DNA from: a virus
Reading direction: 5' to 3' (one strand)
IMG/VR virus record: IMGVR_UViG_3300030090_004153
Location: 5,034-29,844 of that record
Length of the DNA stretch: 24,811 nt
A program made the position numbers and the translations under genes. The notes beneath the pieces are model-generated. The model saw only the letters and a program-made list of their open reading frames with translations. It made no database searches and was not told where the DNA came from. This document shows, in pieces, positions 7,003-23,799 of the stretch (positions are counted from its first letter, which is position 1; every line of letters starts with the position of its first letter).

Positions 7003-7269
7003 AATAACTCCTTACTATATTATATATGTATTGGCGGTTAGCTTCCTCTTCTTACCTAACTCTTACATTGTTTATACCGCTAAGTCACTGGCATATCACG
7101 CATCTCACTAATAGAGATCTGATCGTAGAATATACAAGCCTTAGTCAACAGGAATAATACCAATACATGTTGGTGTCTACCTTCACATATCTGATAGCTC
7201 TTATATTTTTTAGAATAGTGTATAAGGCATAGCCCTACCATACCTTTGTCAAAAAACCCTAATACATAT

Positions 7270-7550: not shown

Positions 7551-7596
7551 TCCCTTTTACATTCGTCCTACCACGGAACTTTCGATGGCACACTCC

Positions 7597-7708
7597 GGCG
7601 CGCACAACCGCGCGCCTATCCGCTCCTCTCGGTGGATAAAGGGCAGGGCTTTTCCGTGGGTGGGGTTCGCGGCCCGGAGGGGGGCGAAAAAGGGCGCGGA
7701 ACGCGCCC
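7597..7708. ncRNA. GC-rich array of four hairpins (structured element 1)
   Basis: Positions 7591-7710 are about 71% GC in an AT-rich genome. Four stems follow one another: 7597-7603 with 7610-7616 (7 pairs, loop ACAACC); 7617-7623 with 7632-7638 (7 pairs, one G-U); 7666-7670 and 7673-7675 with 7679-7681 and 7684-7688 (8 pairs around a GG/GG loop); 7692-7698 with 7702-7708 (7 GC pairs, loop GAA). The linker 7641-7665 holds four runs of G (plus strand) that could form a quadruplex. The folding potential exists on both strands. Reading frames here are GC-rich artefacts. RNA, terminator cluster or DNA structure are all possible. Confidence 0.5.
7687..7708 (-). terminator. Leftward Rho-independent terminator
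   Basis: On the minus strand a seven-pair all-GC stem (GGGCGCG / CGCGCCC, loop TTC) is followed at once by five T. This is the best intrinsic terminator in the window. It would stop leftward transcripts starting in the operator region before they enter the early operon. On the plus strand the stem is followed by GAAAAATTT, so it would work poorly in that direction. Confidence 0.6.
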
Positions 7709-7727
7709 GAAAAATTTCGTGTTCAGG

Positions 7728-7799
7728 TAGAACGTATGTTCTAAAACACAGACTCGAACACATGTTCTAATCGCAGGGTCGGTTAGAACGTTTGTTCTA
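7728..7799. promoter_or_regulatory. Three tandem LexA-like operators (GAAC-N4-GTTC)
   Basis: Box 1 is TAGAACGTATGTTCTA (7728-7743), with six-base arms that match perfectly. Box 2 is CGAACACATGTTCT (7755-7768). Box 3 is TAGAACGTTTGTTCTA (7784-7799), again with perfect six-base arms. Against the Bacillus LexA consensus CGAACRNRYGTTYC, box 2 matches 13 of 14 positions, box 1 matches 12 and box 3 matches 11. Centres are 26 and 30 bases apart. Box 3 touches the -35 of the rightward promoter at 7801. A host LexA or a phage repressor with the same half-site could bind; no repressor gene is in the window. Confidence 0.7.
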
Positions 7800-7920: not shown

Positions 7921-8604
7921 ATGTCAAAGCGAAATGAAGTAAAATGGTATGAAAGTCTAGATGTTAAGGGGATTAGTACTAATTCTCAAGACTTGCTCAA
8001 GGCATACTTACCAGAGTATGAAAGTCTAGAGCTTGAAGATCTTAGGTGGATACCTTACGTTAAGATTCAATGTCGAGATTGTGCGAGCGCTACGAGCGGT
8101 CACGCAGTCTACACCATTGAATCAAACGGGGTTACTAACTCCAAAGGTGAAGAAATCCACTTATGGAACTCTAACCAAGGAGTAGAACCTGAGGTTAATT
8201 TTGCATGGGGGATTATGGCTCATCATCAGGAGCATATGCACCCACTAGACCCAAAAGCCGAGGGATACAAAGCATCAAGGAAGTACCGAGATGACAAGCT
8301 CGAACACTTAATTGATCCTGCTACCGTTACCGAGAGAGATATAGCATACAAAACTATAAATTCTCCAAATGGTAGCAATGTGGTTATTCCACATCTTGAT
8401 GGGTTTGAGGTTACCTCTAGCGAGATGGAGTTAGTTATCAATCAAGGAGAATATCCAAATACAACATATGGATCTCCTCGTCGAAGTTGGGACGAACTCC
8501 AAAGGACTCTAAAGTTTCAATTATCAATTGCATCATGGGATCAGCATTCTAATGATTGGTACCAAGTGAGGAGAGCTATTCAAAAGCTACAGAGATCTAA
8601 ATAA
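7921..8604 (+). CDS. Orphan 227-aa protein under LexA-like operators
   Basis: I do not recognise this protein. It is soluble, without signal peptide or membrane helix. Residues about 50-66 hold a CRDCASATSGH motif (C-x2-C with a nearby His). A histidine-rich AHHQEHMHP stretch lies near residue 100, so metal binding is conceivable. The C-terminal 40 residues are helical and basic (QVRRAIQKLQRSK). AGGAAAGG lies 7 bases before the ATG. It is the only gene between the operator array and the second GC-rich element, and it faces the late genes with its own promoter. That is the position where phages often carry a regulator, an early rightward function or a cargo gene. A role as an SOS-responsive regulator is possible but not shown by any motif. 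Confidence 0.7.
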   Translation: MSKRNEVKWYESLDVKGISTNSQDLLKAYLPEYESLELEDLRWIPYVKIQCRDCASATSGHAVYTIESNGVTNSKGEEIHLWNSNQGVEPEVNFAWGIMAHHQEHMHPLDPKAEGYKASRKYRDDKLEHLIDPATVTERDIAYKTINSPNGSNVVIPHLDGFEVTSSEMELVINQGEYPNTTYGSPRRSWDELQRTLKFQLSIASWDQHSNDWYQVRRAIQKLQRSK

Positions 8605-8663: not shown

Positions 8664-8787
8664 GCCCCACATACGAGGGCGGATAGAGCGAACCGCCCAC
8701 ACCCGGAGCGTCTTTAGCCCGTACCCCCGGGACGGGAGCGGAGGGTGGGGGCGGCCGAAGGGCGATAGCCTCCCTCGTATGTGGGGG
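8664..8787. ncRNA. GC-rich rod-shaped structured element 2 (candidate ncRNA or packaging site)
   Basis: Positions 8661-8790 are 70% GC. The outer stem pairs 8665-8679 with 8772-8786: 15 perfect pairs, CCCCACATACGAGGG with CCCTCGTATGTGGGG. A large internal loop (8680-8692 / 8755-8771) leads to a second stem of 11 of 12 pairs, 8693-8704 with 8743-8754. A second loop (8705-8717 / 8737-8742) leads to a hairpin 8718-8722 with 8732-8736. The result is one unbranched rod of about 120 bases. Reading frames across it are artefacts, since both strands are open only because of base composition. It lies between the orphan gene and the terminase genes. Candidates are a small RNA (rod with open centre, as in 6S RNA), a cos/pac packaging site, or an mRNA processing signal. 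It matches no RNA family I can name. Confidence 0.6.
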
Positions 8788-8825
8788 GCAGTCAGCGATA
8801 ATGTCTCGCAAGCCGTGATATATTG

Positions 8826-8834
8826 TGTTATACT
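8826..8834 (+). promoter_or_regulatory. Extended -10 promoter of the late operon
   Basis: The sequence TGTTATACT is a full extended -10: TG, one base, then TATACT (5 of 6 to TATAAT). No good -35 exists (TCGCAA at 8806-8811 is the best). The expected transcription start falls on or next to the A of the ATG at 8841, so the terminase small subunit mRNA may have no leader. Confidence 0.55.
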
Positions 8835-8840
8835 TTTGGT

Positions 8841-9299
8841 ATGAAAACAGTAGAAGAATTGATAACTGAATTGGATCCTAATCGGGACTATGGTGAACGA
8901 AGTTATACGGATGTGGTTGATGGTGTACGGAATGGATACATTGCTATCTCTCCCGGTATGCCGACTCCCATCCTCCGAGACATTGGCCGAGGTGTAACAA
9001 TAAAAGGTACGGGGAGACCTGTAGTTACCCATGAGCACCGCAGTAGTAACCTTGCACGATTTGAAGAACGGGGCGAAGTTGAATTTGATTCTGCGTTTGA
9101 AGCATTTATGCAGAATGTCATGAACGGCGATGTAAAGGCCCAGATGTACTTCTTTGACCGGATGTTAGGTAAACCACGGGAATCGCGTGAATCCGCCGCT
9201 CGTGACGAAATGAACGCCTTCTGGGCAAGTTTTGCGGGAACTACCATGGCACAAGTAAAGAATGAGCAACCGAAGGTTATAGATGTCGAACTCGATTGA
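8841..9299 (+). CDS. Terminase small subunit (putative)
   Basis: From ATG 8841 this is a 152-residue protein. A longer reading from TTG 8823 would include the promoter, so I reject it. The segment AFMQNVMNGDVKAQMYFFDRMLGKP (about residues 88-112) matches the family feature in which a Gly-Asp helix is followed by an LDR-LGKP-type motif. The location directly before the large terminase is the classic one. The small subunit recognises viral DNA and starts packaging. The N-terminal half contains IKGTGRPVVTHEHR, probably the DNA-binding or linker part, without a clear helix-turn-helix. No ribosome binding site precedes the ATG, consistent with a leaderless start. The gene overlaps the large subunit by 17 bases. 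Assignment rests on context and this motif. Confidence 0.7.
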   Translation: MKTVEELITELDPNRDYGERSYTDVVDGVRNGYIAISPGMPTPILRDIGRGVTIKGTGRPVVTHEHRSSNLARFEERGEVEFDSAFEAFMQNVMNGDVKAQMYFFDRMLGKPRESRESAARDEMNAFWASFAGTTMAQVKNEQPKVIDVELD

Positions 9300-10659
9300 T
9301 TATATTAGACCACCTGCGTGGAATTGGTTAAAAATTTTTGGCGAGAATGGATATGAACCTTTTCCATGGCAAGCCGAACATATACACTCCCGCCCGGAAA
9401 ATAGAATAATTGCCGCCTGTGGTCGGCGTGCCGGTAAATCTACAGCAATTGTAGCTGAAGCATGGCGTGAGTTAGCTCGACTCCCCACCGTCGTATCTGG
9501 TGCGACTCATTACCCCTTGGTTTATATTATTGCCCCGAACTACGAGCTCACCATGCGCGTTTGGGAACCATTTGTAAAGTCTTGTATTGGTGATCCAAAT
9601 TCATCTAATCGTCCTCCCCTGTCCGAATTAGTGACGTACTACAATAAAGAACGTCGATTGATTGAATTAAAAAATGGGGCGCGGATTCAGGCAAAGTCTG
9701 CAGATAACCAAGTATCGTTACAGGGAGATCGAGTAACTGCCGCTATAGTAGATGAGGCCCATGATGTGCCGGATACCGCTCGAAATGAGTTCATGCCGGC
9801 ATTGACCGACTCGCATGGTCGGCTCATTGCAATTGGCGTACCCCAAAGCAATAACTGGTTTCGATCATATTGGGAGCGTGGCCAATCCTCATTACCAGAA
9901 GATGTAGACTATTACTCATTTTCGGTTCCAACGACTGCAAATCCAGCTATCGATCCCCGTGTCGTGGAAGAAGCTCGACTGGAGTATCCAGAAATCGAGT
10001 TCCGACAACGATTCTTGGCCGAATGGGCCGAATCCGAAGGTAAGGTTTTTAAAAATATTGACGATTGTTTTGATGGTAGCCTCCAAGAATATGACAAAAC
10101 TAAACAATACTTGATGGGTTTAGATGTCGCAAAGCAACATGACTATACTGTAGCGTACATTATTAATATTAACGATATGTCAATTGTAGCAAGCGACCGA
10201 TTTAATGGTCTATCGTATACTGCATTGGGCCCACGTATCGCAAGTCTATATCAAAAATATCATTGTCAAACAATTCATATGGATGCAACCGGTGTAGGTG
10301 AAGCAGTAAAAGACATTCTGGTAGATGAACGATGTCATATTACATCATTTAAGTTCACTAATCAATCAAAGGCACAATTAGTGTCAACATTAGTTGCAGA
10401 AGTAGAACATAAGAGAGTACACTTTCCTATAGACGATGAACAATTACGTCGTGAGCTAAAATTGTTTGAAGGTAAGGTGTTGGCAGGAGGGCTTATTCAG
10501 TACTCTGCACCGCCCGGATACTTTGATGACTGCGTTATGGCCGCCGGTCTTAGTGTGTTGCTCGCAAAACAACGTCAACCTCGAAAAGTCAATTTCAATA
10601 AAAAGTATATTAGCTTTTCAAATAAACAAAAACGTAAATTCTTGACAGGTGTAGCATGA
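9283..10659 (+). CDS. terL: Terminase large subunit (packaging ATPase-nuclease)
   Basis: This is a complete 458-residue protein. The ATPase half has Walker A GRRAGKST (residues 47-54) and Walker B IVDEAH (155-160, catalytic Glu158). The nuclease half has GLDVAKQHDYT (Asp281), MDATGVGE (Asp334) and FDDCVMA (Asp415/416), the acidic triad of the RNase H-like fold. The protein pumps DNA into the procapsid through the portal and cuts the concatemer. AAGG lies six bases before the ATG. It overlaps terS by 17 bases and the portal gene by four (ATGA). All catalytic residues are present, so the gene should be functional. Confidence 0.97.
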   Translation: MSNSIDYIRPPAWNWLKIFGENGYEPFPWQAEHIHSRPENRIIAACGRRAGKSTAIVAEAWRELARLPTVVSGATHYPLVYIIAPNYELTMRVWEPFVKSCIGDPNSSNRPPLSELVTYYNKERRLIELKNGARIQAKSADNQVSLQGDRVTAAIVDEAHDVPDTARNEFMPALTDSHGRLIAIGVPQSNNWFRSYWERGQSSLPEDVDYYSFSVPTTANPAIDPRVVEEARLEYPEIEFRQRFLAEWAESEGKVFKNIDDCFDGSLQEYDKTKQYLMGLDVAKQHDYTVAYIININDMSIVASDRFNGLSYTALGPRIASLYQKYHCQTIHMDATGVGEAVKDILVDERCHITSFKFTNQSKAQLVSTLVAEVEHKRVHFPIDDEQLRRELKLFEGKVLAGGLIQYSAPPGYFDDCVMAAGLSVLLAKQRQPRKVNFNKKYISFSNKQKRKFLTGVA

Positions 10660-12476
10660 CTGCAGACGACGATTACAAAAGATTTCAATTTTTAAAGAGC
10701 AATGTCTATGCGCGGTGCATTGAAGAATTTAAAACAGATGAAGATCTCATAAATGGATCATTCGCGCGTACAATTGTACCCGATGATTGGATGGATGAAG
10801 GTTTAGAACCTACAGTTCCCCCCACTGCATACAATGCGGTAGTCAATGCTGCCGATCATATCCTGACTAAACCTCGTGTATATGTTCCAATTAGACCGGT
10901 ACAGCGTTCGCAAGAGGCGGCACGAGAACGTGCTGAGAATCAACGTCGATTCCATGATATGTGGTGGGCTCGTGTACATGAAGATCAAGGTGCACCATTA
11001 GATCGGGGCAAGAAGAAACTTATTCGCGGAAAGATGGTTATAAAAAAGACCATCAAGTTTGATTTGTTACCGGATTTACCGGAAGAACCAACTCGTCAAG
11101 ACAAACGACGATTCCGATCTGCAATTAAACGGGTAGCTAAATCCAGATTCCTTTGGAATATAGATATATGTCCACCCGAACATGTGTTTGAGGATCCAAG
11201 TAACCCGTGGGATCCAAATTATGTATACGAAGAATATGAAATTTACGCCAGTGAAGCTCTTGAAAAGTACCCAGAGATGGTTACGGAGTATGGCGGTGAT
11301 CCCATGCGTAAACTGCAGTACGTTGAAATGTGGAGTAAGCCATATAAAGACGATCCCGGTAGGTATACGTGCTGGGTTAATGGAGATGTTATCCATGAAT
11401 CGGTCAATCCGTACTCATGGGAGACTAAAGAATCAACTGATGAGATGCCAAACTATGATGGATATGTACCATATGCAATTGTAGACCCCGGATTTGGGGA
11501 TGTAGATGGAGATAATAAACCGGAAGATAGATATGCTTCTATCCTTCGTCCAATTAGATCCGTCTTAACCTCAGAAGCTCGATACTTAACTGAGCTGGAG
11601 GCATGGTTGCGGATGTATGTATTCCCAGCCGTAGTAACTACCAACATGGAAGAACTAGAAGATGGGGAAAAAGAATTTAGATTAGGCCCCGGTAGTCATC
11701 TGAACTTACGTGCGGATCAAAGTATAGACACTTTAAAGTGGGGCGAAGCTCCGCTGACATTAATGCAAGGATTATCTCGTGTTAATTCCTATGCCGATGA
11801 AGCATCTAAGTTTGGATCACTTGGTGGTCAGCCATTAGTTGGAGTAGAGTCGGCCACTGAAAGTGATGCTTTACTCCGTAATGCTGCAGTTAAGTTAGGT
11901 GGGCCTGTCAATGCAATGCAACGAGCGTGCCAAAAGATTAACTCGTGGATATTGATGGATATTGAGAAGATACTCGAAACTGAAGTTACGTTATACGGAT
12001 CATTTTCTAGTGATTCTTCTGAAGTCACAATCAAGCCAAGTGATATCAATGGATATTACTATACAAATGTCACGTTTGAAACAACAGACGAGATGTTAAT
12101 CAACTCACGTAAAGCTAGATTATGGGCTGACCTTTATCGTATTATGCCCGGTCTGTCGGAACGTACCGCAATGGATAAAATGGGAATTGATGATCCTACA
12201 AACGAACAAGATGAACGTAGTATTGAAAATATTATGCGTTCAATGCCAATGCAACAGGTTCAAATGATGATTGCATTAGCCGGATTAGGTGAAGTAGGTG
12301 AAGAAGTAATGCGTATTATGTCGGCTACAGCTGGAATGGCTCCCGAATCTCCTACTCCAATGGGAGATGAACAAGCATTAACAACTGTAGATGAACTTGG
12401 TAATGCGACCGAACCTGTCGTTACAGAAGCTCGACTTAATGCACAAGCAGATCAAGCGCAAAGGCAGTTTCAATAA
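10656..12476 (+). CDS. Portal protein
   Basis: This is a 606-residue protein directly after the large terminase, in the expected position and size for a portal. It contains NAVVNAADHILTKPRVYVPI near residue 60, then a basic helical segment. A beta-rich middle (WNIDICPPEHVFEDP, YVEMWSKPYKDDPGRYTCWVNGDVI) resembles the wing of portal proteins that describe a location and read out a value. A long helical C-terminal half follows (LTELEAWLRMYVFPAVV and a stem-like region near 390-440). It forms the dodecameric ring at one vertex through which DNA enters and leaves. The last 70 residues are Met/Gln-rich and probably flexible. The four-base overlap with terL indicates coupling. No single residue motif proves the family; context and fold pattern do. 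Confidence 0.85.
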   Translation: MTADDDYKRFQFLKSNVYARCIEEFKTDEDLINGSFARTIVPDDWMDEGLEPTVPPTAYNAVVNAADHILTKPRVYVPIRPVQRSQEAARERAENQRRFHDMWWARVHEDQGAPLDRGKKKLIRGKMVIKKTIKFDLLPDLPEEPTRQDKRRFRSAIKRVAKSRFLWNIDICPPEHVFEDPSNPWDPNYVYEEYEIYASEALEKYPEMVTEYGGDPMRKLQYVEMWSKPYKDDPGRYTCWVNGDVIHESVNPYSWETKESTDEMPNYDGYVPYAIVDPGFGDVDGDNKPEDRYASILRPIRSVLTSEARYLTELEAWLRMYVFPAVVTTNMEELEDGEKEFRLGPGSHLNLRADQSIDTLKWGEAPLTLMQGLSRVNSYADEASKFGSLGGQPLVGVESATESDALLRNAAVKLGGPVNAMQRACQKINSWILMDIEKILETEVTLYGSFSSDSSEVTIKPSDINGYYYTNVTFETTDEMLINSRKARLWADLYRIMPGLSERTAMDKMGIDDPTNEQDERSIENIMRSMPMQQVQMMIALAGLGEVGEEVMRIMSATAGMAPESPTPMGDEQALTTVDELGNATEPVVTEARLNAQADQAQRQFQ

Positions 12477-22954: not shown

Positions 22955-23392
22955 ATGGTAGCTGTAGCTAACGCAAAAGCTGAATCGTTTACATTCAACT
23001 CCATTGGAAACGGTGCAACTAAATCAGAGTTTTTTACCAACTCAAATGCGGTTCGTATTTTGAACATGACTGTTGTCAGTGAAGCTGCAATCGCAGCCCA
23101 CGCTTCAAACGTGTACAAAGTCGAATTGCTTACTGGGGCAACGGTAATTGGAAAAATTACTAATGACTCAGATGAGAGCACAACCACAGCCACAACTGGG
23201 GTAGTGGGTATTGACTCAGCTTTGTACGCTGCTAAGACCACTAGGTCAATAGCATTTACACAAGCTGGTGCTAATTCTGATGGTGCTTACGAAAATGCTG
23301 CTGATGCAGTATTGGAAATCAAGGCAAGCAATGACACTGGTGGTACTATCACCGACGTTACTGTTCACCTTGAGTACACAGTAAGCGACTAA
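22955..23392 (+). CDS. Beta-rich virion protein, possible capsid decoration
   Basis: This 145-residue protein is rich in Thr, Ala, Val and Asp. Its strand-like repeats (NVYKVELLTGATVIGKI, GTITDVTVHLEYTVSD) suggest an all-beta fold, and it has no cysteine. It lies 18 bases after the capsid gene, with a GGGAAGGA ribosome binding site. Placement directly after the capsid is typical of decoration or head-completion proteins. I do not recognise the family. Confidence 0.6.
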   Translation: MVAVANAKAESFTFNSIGNGATKSEFFTNSNAVRILNMTVVSEAAIAAHASNVYKVELLTGATVIGKITNDSDESTTTATTGVVGIDSALYAAKTTRSIAFTQAGANSDGAYENAADAVLEIKASNDTGGTITDVTVHLEYTVSD

Positions 23393-23394
23393 GT

Positions 23395-23799
23395 ATGAAC
23401 GAACTTGTCGTTGCTGCATCAATCGTCAGTCCAGACGAACCTGCCTTGAGGCTCGAAGAACTTAATGTTCAAGGGATCAATGGGCAAAAGATGCAGCGAC
23501 GGCAATTCATACATGTCATTAGGAATGATAAGCGAGCCGTATGGTCGGAAGATCTAGGTGATGCTGAATCATTCTTTACGCCACCGTTTAGTATTCCATC
23601 TTTGTTGGAACATACGGTCGCAGAGCTACGTGAGATTGCAGATCAATTACGTGAAAGTAAAGAGTCTGTCAATCGTGTAGATGAATTGAGTGAAGCATCA
23701 ACACTTATAAAAGATGCAATAGATCAAGCTGAAGAACGAACGCTGAAGATGCGCCGTGTATCTGTTAATGGCCCATCCATCACCGTCGAAAGGAATTGA
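23395..23799 (+). CDS. Hypothetical late protein, 134 aa
   Basis: This is an unrecognised protein. A strand-rich first half (MQRRQFIHVIRNDKRAVWSEDL) is followed by a helical acidic half (AELREIADQLRESKESVNRVDEL). It begins two bases after the previous stop, and no strong ribosome binding site is seen. Genes here usually code for head-neck or completion proteins. A structural or assembly role is inferred from position only. Confidence 0.6.
   Translation: MNELVVAASIVSPDEPALRLEELNVQGINGQKMQRRQFIHVIRNDKRAVWSEDLGDAESFFTPPFSIPSLLEHTVAELREIADQLRESKESVNRVDELSEASTLIKDAIDQAEERTLKMRRVSVNGPSITVERN

Follow-up and report, generated by a model that had tools for sequence, protein, structure and literature searches.

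The conserved feature in front of the putative terS–terL pair of this deep-sea bacterial phage is a bipartite DNA site, not the fold of the GC-rich rod that partly covers it. Judged from its sequence and its place, this two-box site would be a terminase recognition and cleavage site, either cos-like or a pac lying outside terS; we put the probability of this reading at roughly 0.6. The GC-rich palindrome itself, at 8664–8787 of the window (the entire stretch of 24,811 nucleotides analysed, which is part of a record of 32,691 bases), is confirmed as real. Most likely, the rod belongs to the DNA of the site and is not a conserved RNA. A striking fold in one genome can mislead: in the relatives, the DNA words persist while the structure does not. 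The features concerned are compiled in Table 1.

Table 1. Features around the two-box site (columns: feature; position in the window; strand; remark)
Putative terminase small subunit, 152 aa	8841–9299	+	TerS by position, size and co-conservation only
Terminase large subunit	9283–10659	+	Terminase_6N/6C
TATACT, −10-like element of the putative terS promoter	8829–8834	+	6 nt before the ATG; near-leaderless start
Box1, GAGGGTGGGGGCGGCC	8741–8756	+	G-rich half of the site; starts 48 bp before the box2 core
Box2, GTGGGGGGCAGTCAGCGATAATGTCTCGCAAGCC	8781–8814	+	most conserved portion of the site; core CAGTCAGCGATAA at 8789–8801
Second box1-like match, GGGGGTACGGGCTAAA, inverted	8713–8728	−	inside the rod; none in relatives
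Outer stem, 5' arm	8665–8679	.	one half of the 15-bp stem; partner 8772–8786
Outer stem, 3' arm	8772–8786	.	G-run is part of the conserved 5' portion of box2
Inner stem, 5' arm	8693–8704	.	11 of 12 pairs with 8743–8754
Inner stem, 3' arm	8743–8754	.	corresponds to the box1 core

Searches with TerL yielded seven close relatives in IMG/VR (L002–L008, 79–85% identity) and one more contig, L052 (JAKUNM010000047.1; terL 85%), in a MAG titled Dehalococcoidia bacterium isolate ALOHA. The relatives are collinear: early genes run leftward, then come a variable non-coding stretch, terS and terL, and the portal and late genes run rightward. Seven of the eight relative contigs extend upstream of terS; L005 begins within it. 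Together with the window and the additional copy that G002 has at its right end, the locus could be compared in nine copies from eight contigs, which represent about six independent lineages. The L052 contig carries the same two-box site as the window. When 393 genomes of the MAG's class were searched for close TerL relatives, only the MAG itself and three remote matches appeared. The host link, consisting of one 7.2-kb MAG contig (a possible binning error) and LexA-type-like AGAAC-N4-GTTCT boxes, suggests a host among the Chloroflexota (SAR202-type), unless L052 is misbinned. None of 50,697 public phage records matched the portal, and DNA searches with the rod region found no match in phage records or in the eight related records. 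The putative TerS hit neither a Pfam nor a PHROG family at E ≤ 0.001; its AlphaFold model is of low confidence (pLDDT 63), and a fold search with it gave no match.

An ungapped alignment of the copies, anchored on CRRTCAGCGA of box2, reveals where the conservation resides. Over seven distinct copies it peaks at about −48 to −36 (box1) and at −8 to +24 (box2), above a flat background of about 0.43–0.5. The consensus of box1 is GAGGGTRSRGGYG; that of box2 is GGRGGRRCRATCAGCGAYRA, followed by CTCGYAAGCC. From the start of box1 to the core of box2 the distance is nearly constant, at 47–49 bp. The site as a whole measures about 80 bp, lies between the variable left-hand region and terS–terL, overlaps the rod in its 3' half and extends 27 bp past it.

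Box2 is the better conserved of the two. With leave-one-out weight matrices it was the top match in every genome scanned (17–30 bits, next best 8–13; in the window 21.3 bits, next best 8.4), with a single strong match per locus copy. Two strong matches occurred in G002 only, one at each end of its 36.3-kb unit. Box1 of the window ranks first in the whole record with 20.6 bits, the matrix being built from other genomes only, and leave-one-out matrices placed it first across the whole record in G000, G003, G007, L006 and L052. In the right-hand copy of G002 it ranks only fourth, and in G001 it is weak (8.1 bits, rank 26), though its spacing to box2 is the same. Each genome unit has the site once, and the putative terS–terL pair invariably follows it. 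More distant TerL relatives (L030–L040, 49–56%) have no box2-like site before terL. Wider box2 patterns also hit a coding motif in another phage group (L043, L044, L046, L047, L049, L050) and three unrelated coding regions (L079–L081); these we read as chance.

The pairing of the rod fares differently from the boxes. Imposed on those seven relative copies that reach far enough upstream, it retained 12–20 of its 41 pairs, against 41 in the window, and controls in which the partners were slid by 1–3 bases retained the same. The outer stem keeps 5–9 of its 15 pairs. Six of the seven copies tested lack a partner arm for it beyond chance, and the one in G001 is weak (15 of 500 shuffles did as well). 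For the 124-nt stretch preceding the site, the fold z is about 0 in most relatives and −4.8 in the window alone; the left copy of G002 reaches −2.6, due to a different hairpin, and only G001 has several other long palindromes in the stretch upstream of the site, at different places. Bases kept without the pairing is among the outcomes that the original prediction had named beforehand as refuting it, and it is what the relatives display.

That the site occurs once, precedes terS–terL and has a fixed spacing between its boxes agrees with a terminase site. The terminase would bind one box of concatemeric DNA and cut at, or close to, the other; after cutting, packaging would proceed rightwards and into the late genes. 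We infer three points: the binder is terminase, the site is a cos rather than a pac, and the rod arose by template switching. The earlier suggestion of a cos/pac signal before terS gains support from a conserved, single-copy two-box site overlapping the 3' half of the rod: non-coding DNA adjoining terS–terL is conserved in the related phages (TerS being assigned by position only). None of the contigs compared ends exactly on the site. Two boxes at near-fixed spacing offer a concrete model of a packaging site for a marine phage group with a sequence link to Dehalococcoidia, and the site could help to orient genomes of the group and to close them.

Contig G002 has one copy of the site at 146 and the next at 36470, 36,324 bases apart; it begins 145 bases before the one and ends just past the other. 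Its two copies, however, are different variants with unrelated upstream sequence, which means that G002 joins variants and does not prove physical ends. The site-to-site span may reflect a strain mixture at the variable region rather than physical ends. In G003, the left and right ends match each other at 81% and 97%, and the implied unit is about 38.5 kb. The overlapping segments, L021 1–1025 and L022 (G003 38543–39671), are diverged copies, like the ends of G002 at the site. Both genomes fit a map of 36–39 kb that is closed or concatemeric and has its hypervariable stretch on the left-hand side of the site. The contigs of the group seem to close through this hypervariable region, with strain mixture.

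Known packaging systems offer partial parallels. Headful phages of the P22 and SPP1 type likewise have a terminase-recognised DNA (putative here) near terS. Classical pac sites, however, lie inside terS, whereas the site described here is found 52–110 nt before it. The lambda-type cos (cosQ-cosN-cosB; lambda, 21, N15) is a multipartite site just before terS with fixed spacing of its subsites, as here; its cosB adjoins cosN, and the whole cos comprises about 200 bp (PMC4669245). The likeness is one of layout: no sequence identity is claimed, our TerL is Terminase_6/P74-26-like, known R sites or an IHF site were not identified, and cutting is putative. The cos of HK97, likewise placed directly before terS–terL, is intergenic too and has a short TerS recognition segment near the cleavage site, TerS binding 15–29 bp from the cut (PMC11331095). 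In contrast to HK97, no HNH endonuclease gene was recognised beside terS–terL here, and the putative TerS is unrelated by sequence, within the tools used.

Could the boxes instead serve transcription? As the site of a regulator or activator of the terS–late operon, they would leave the rod incidental. The site indeed lies directly upstream of a sigma70-like promoter serving terS, and the CTCGTAAGCC end of box2 nears the −35 region. The TATACT element of the window was called from the sequence and was not listed by a consensus scan of the region; in the relatives, a TTGACA/TATAAT-like promoter separates the site from terS, only a few nt away from the ATG and in the same arrangement (TTGACA..GATACT in G002 and L052, TTGACT..TATTAT in G001). 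Since this promoter is downstream of the site, the latter is outside the terS message, barring read-through of an upstream transcript. An activator would be expected to stay at a set distance from the promoter it serves, a constraint that does not apply to an autonomous DNA site. Between box2 and the terS ATG we counted 52, 73, 84, 85, 85, 101, 110 and 110 nt in the individual copies, yet the spacing of box1 to box2 is nearly fixed. This variation argues against an activator site and for an autonomous terminase site. Moreover, there is one site per genome, and it precedes no other operon. We therefore regard the regulatory explanation as unlikely, though the best of the rivals.

What, then, is the rod? 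Folding recovered the predicted architecture: an outer stem with 15 of 15 pairs, an inner stem with 11 of 12, and beyond it an end hairpin of 4 pairs. The alleged open centre consists of short 2-bp helices and small loops instead of a single large bubble. The GC island, too, is as described, with 71% over 124 nt versus 39.3% for the record. As RNA, the rod folds at −73.7 kcal/mol (z −4.9), as DNA at −41.9 (z −5.6); none of 200 shuffles equalled either value. The minus strand folds as well (z −3.8 in a 171-nt window), as expected from a palindrome. Within the record, the rod is the sole perfect inverted repeat of at least 11 bp (spacer ≤150), and 60 dinucleotide shuffles of the whole genome produced inverted repeats of 14 bp at most, none of 15 bp. 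The uniqueness of the repeat, the fold z-scores and the shuffles together show that the rod is not a chance product of composition. Its ends are not unique, because the RNA fold extends further with longer flanks. Two other 124-nt stretches of the window, 8050–8173 and 23302–23425, in or near coding sequence, have fold z values of −6.2 and −5.5 (30 shuffles).

The 3' half of the rod is simply box1 plus the beginning of box2. Compared with the reverse complement of this half, the 5' half scores 38, while shuffles reach at most 20, and none of the relative copies compared has an equally good 5' partner arm. The right-hand copy of G002 contains GTATGTGGGAGGGG, which nearly matches CGTATGTGGG of the 3' outer-stem arm; the 5' arm, 8665–8679, is read as an inverted copy of the box2 flank that is present only in this genome. 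The simplest reading of these sequences is that the rod is a lineage-specific imperfect palindrome that would stem from inverted duplication of half the site: an inverted copy of the first half, from box1 to the start of box2, would have been placed beside the original, probably by template switching. A passage in PMC7202029 describes template switching as acting at imperfect inverted repeats.

Such a duplication might have had consequences. The inverted box1-like match in the rod scores 17.5 bits, the second best value in the record (next 13.1), and only 2 of 1000 shuffles of the 5' part of the rod reached it. It resembles the inverted TerS-site copies of lambda and N15, which have extra ones, R2 and rR2 (PMC4669245). 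Because the stretch is GC-rich and the relatives do not have it, we take this match as a lead only. That the rod functions as DNA, be it by offering terminase a second, opposite recognition box or as a cruciform, and so alters initiation or specificity of packaging relative to the relatives, appears doubtful at present. If true, this phage of uncultured Chloroflexota would illustrate in nature how a packaging site can evolve when template switching forms a palindrome.

The palindrome and the non-coding stretch around it might also be part of a replication origin, with a hairpin or cruciform for an initiator. The region is situated between the leftward early and the rightward late genes, and the non-coding DNA upstream of the site in G001 is likewise rich in palindromes (perfect hairpins of 13–15 bp). 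G002, G003 and G007, however, have no palindrome of at least 11 bp near the site, repeated iterons were not found in the window, and the conserved boxes are not palindromic overall. An origin is accordingly rather improbable.

There remain the RNAs, a 6S-like one and a packaging RNA, that the original prediction had envisaged. The outline of 6S RNA and phi29 pRNA, a long stem, a loop and a second stem, is indeed alike, and a highly stable fold on each strand, in a GC island, speaks in their favour. Rfam, however, gave no match at the gathering threshold and nothing credible at a permissive one, either in the window or in the relatives. The 6S model (RF00013) did not match at the gathering threshold or at E up to 10; compensatory changes preserving a 6S-like structure were not found in the relatives, where pairs are lost. 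The consensus scan contains no terminator-like site (a stem, then a T-run) at the 3' end of the rod. As to packaging, a phi29-type pRNA goes with a phi29-type ATPase. Instead of such an ATPase (gp16) lacking a separate TerS, this phage has a TerL of the Terminase_6/RuvC type and a separate small ORF. With the pairing of the relatives at the level of slid controls and the terS promoter downstream, a structured RNA of whatever kind, 6S-like decoy, packaging RNA or other small RNA, is highly improbable, and neither proposal finds support.

The left-hand region deserves a few remarks. Between the LexA-like boxes and the rod lies an orphan gene (7921–8604, 227 aa). It is absent from the relatives compared and has no family and no relative in the viral collection; its structure model is meaningless (pLDDT 32). 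For the gene and the rod as a mobile cassette there is evidence neither for nor against. A second GC-rich non-coding patch, at about 7590–7720, comprises 7627–7651 (TCTCGGTGGATAAAGGGCAGGGCTT), which is 92% common to G001 (G001r 11531–11555) and absent from the other relatives compared. Non-coding 7025–7071, GGCGGTTAGCTTCC...CTAACTCTTACATTGT, before the leftward early genes, recurs at 81–83% in G001 and the MAG contig L052. Finally, three LexA-like palindromes, AGAACGTATGTTCT, CGAACACATGTTCT and AGAACGTTTGTTCT, are clustered at 7729–7798 and occur nowhere else in the record. Such boxes are also seen upstream in G002 and G003, one of them overlapping TTGACA; by their sequence, they may be SOS or phage-repressor operators.
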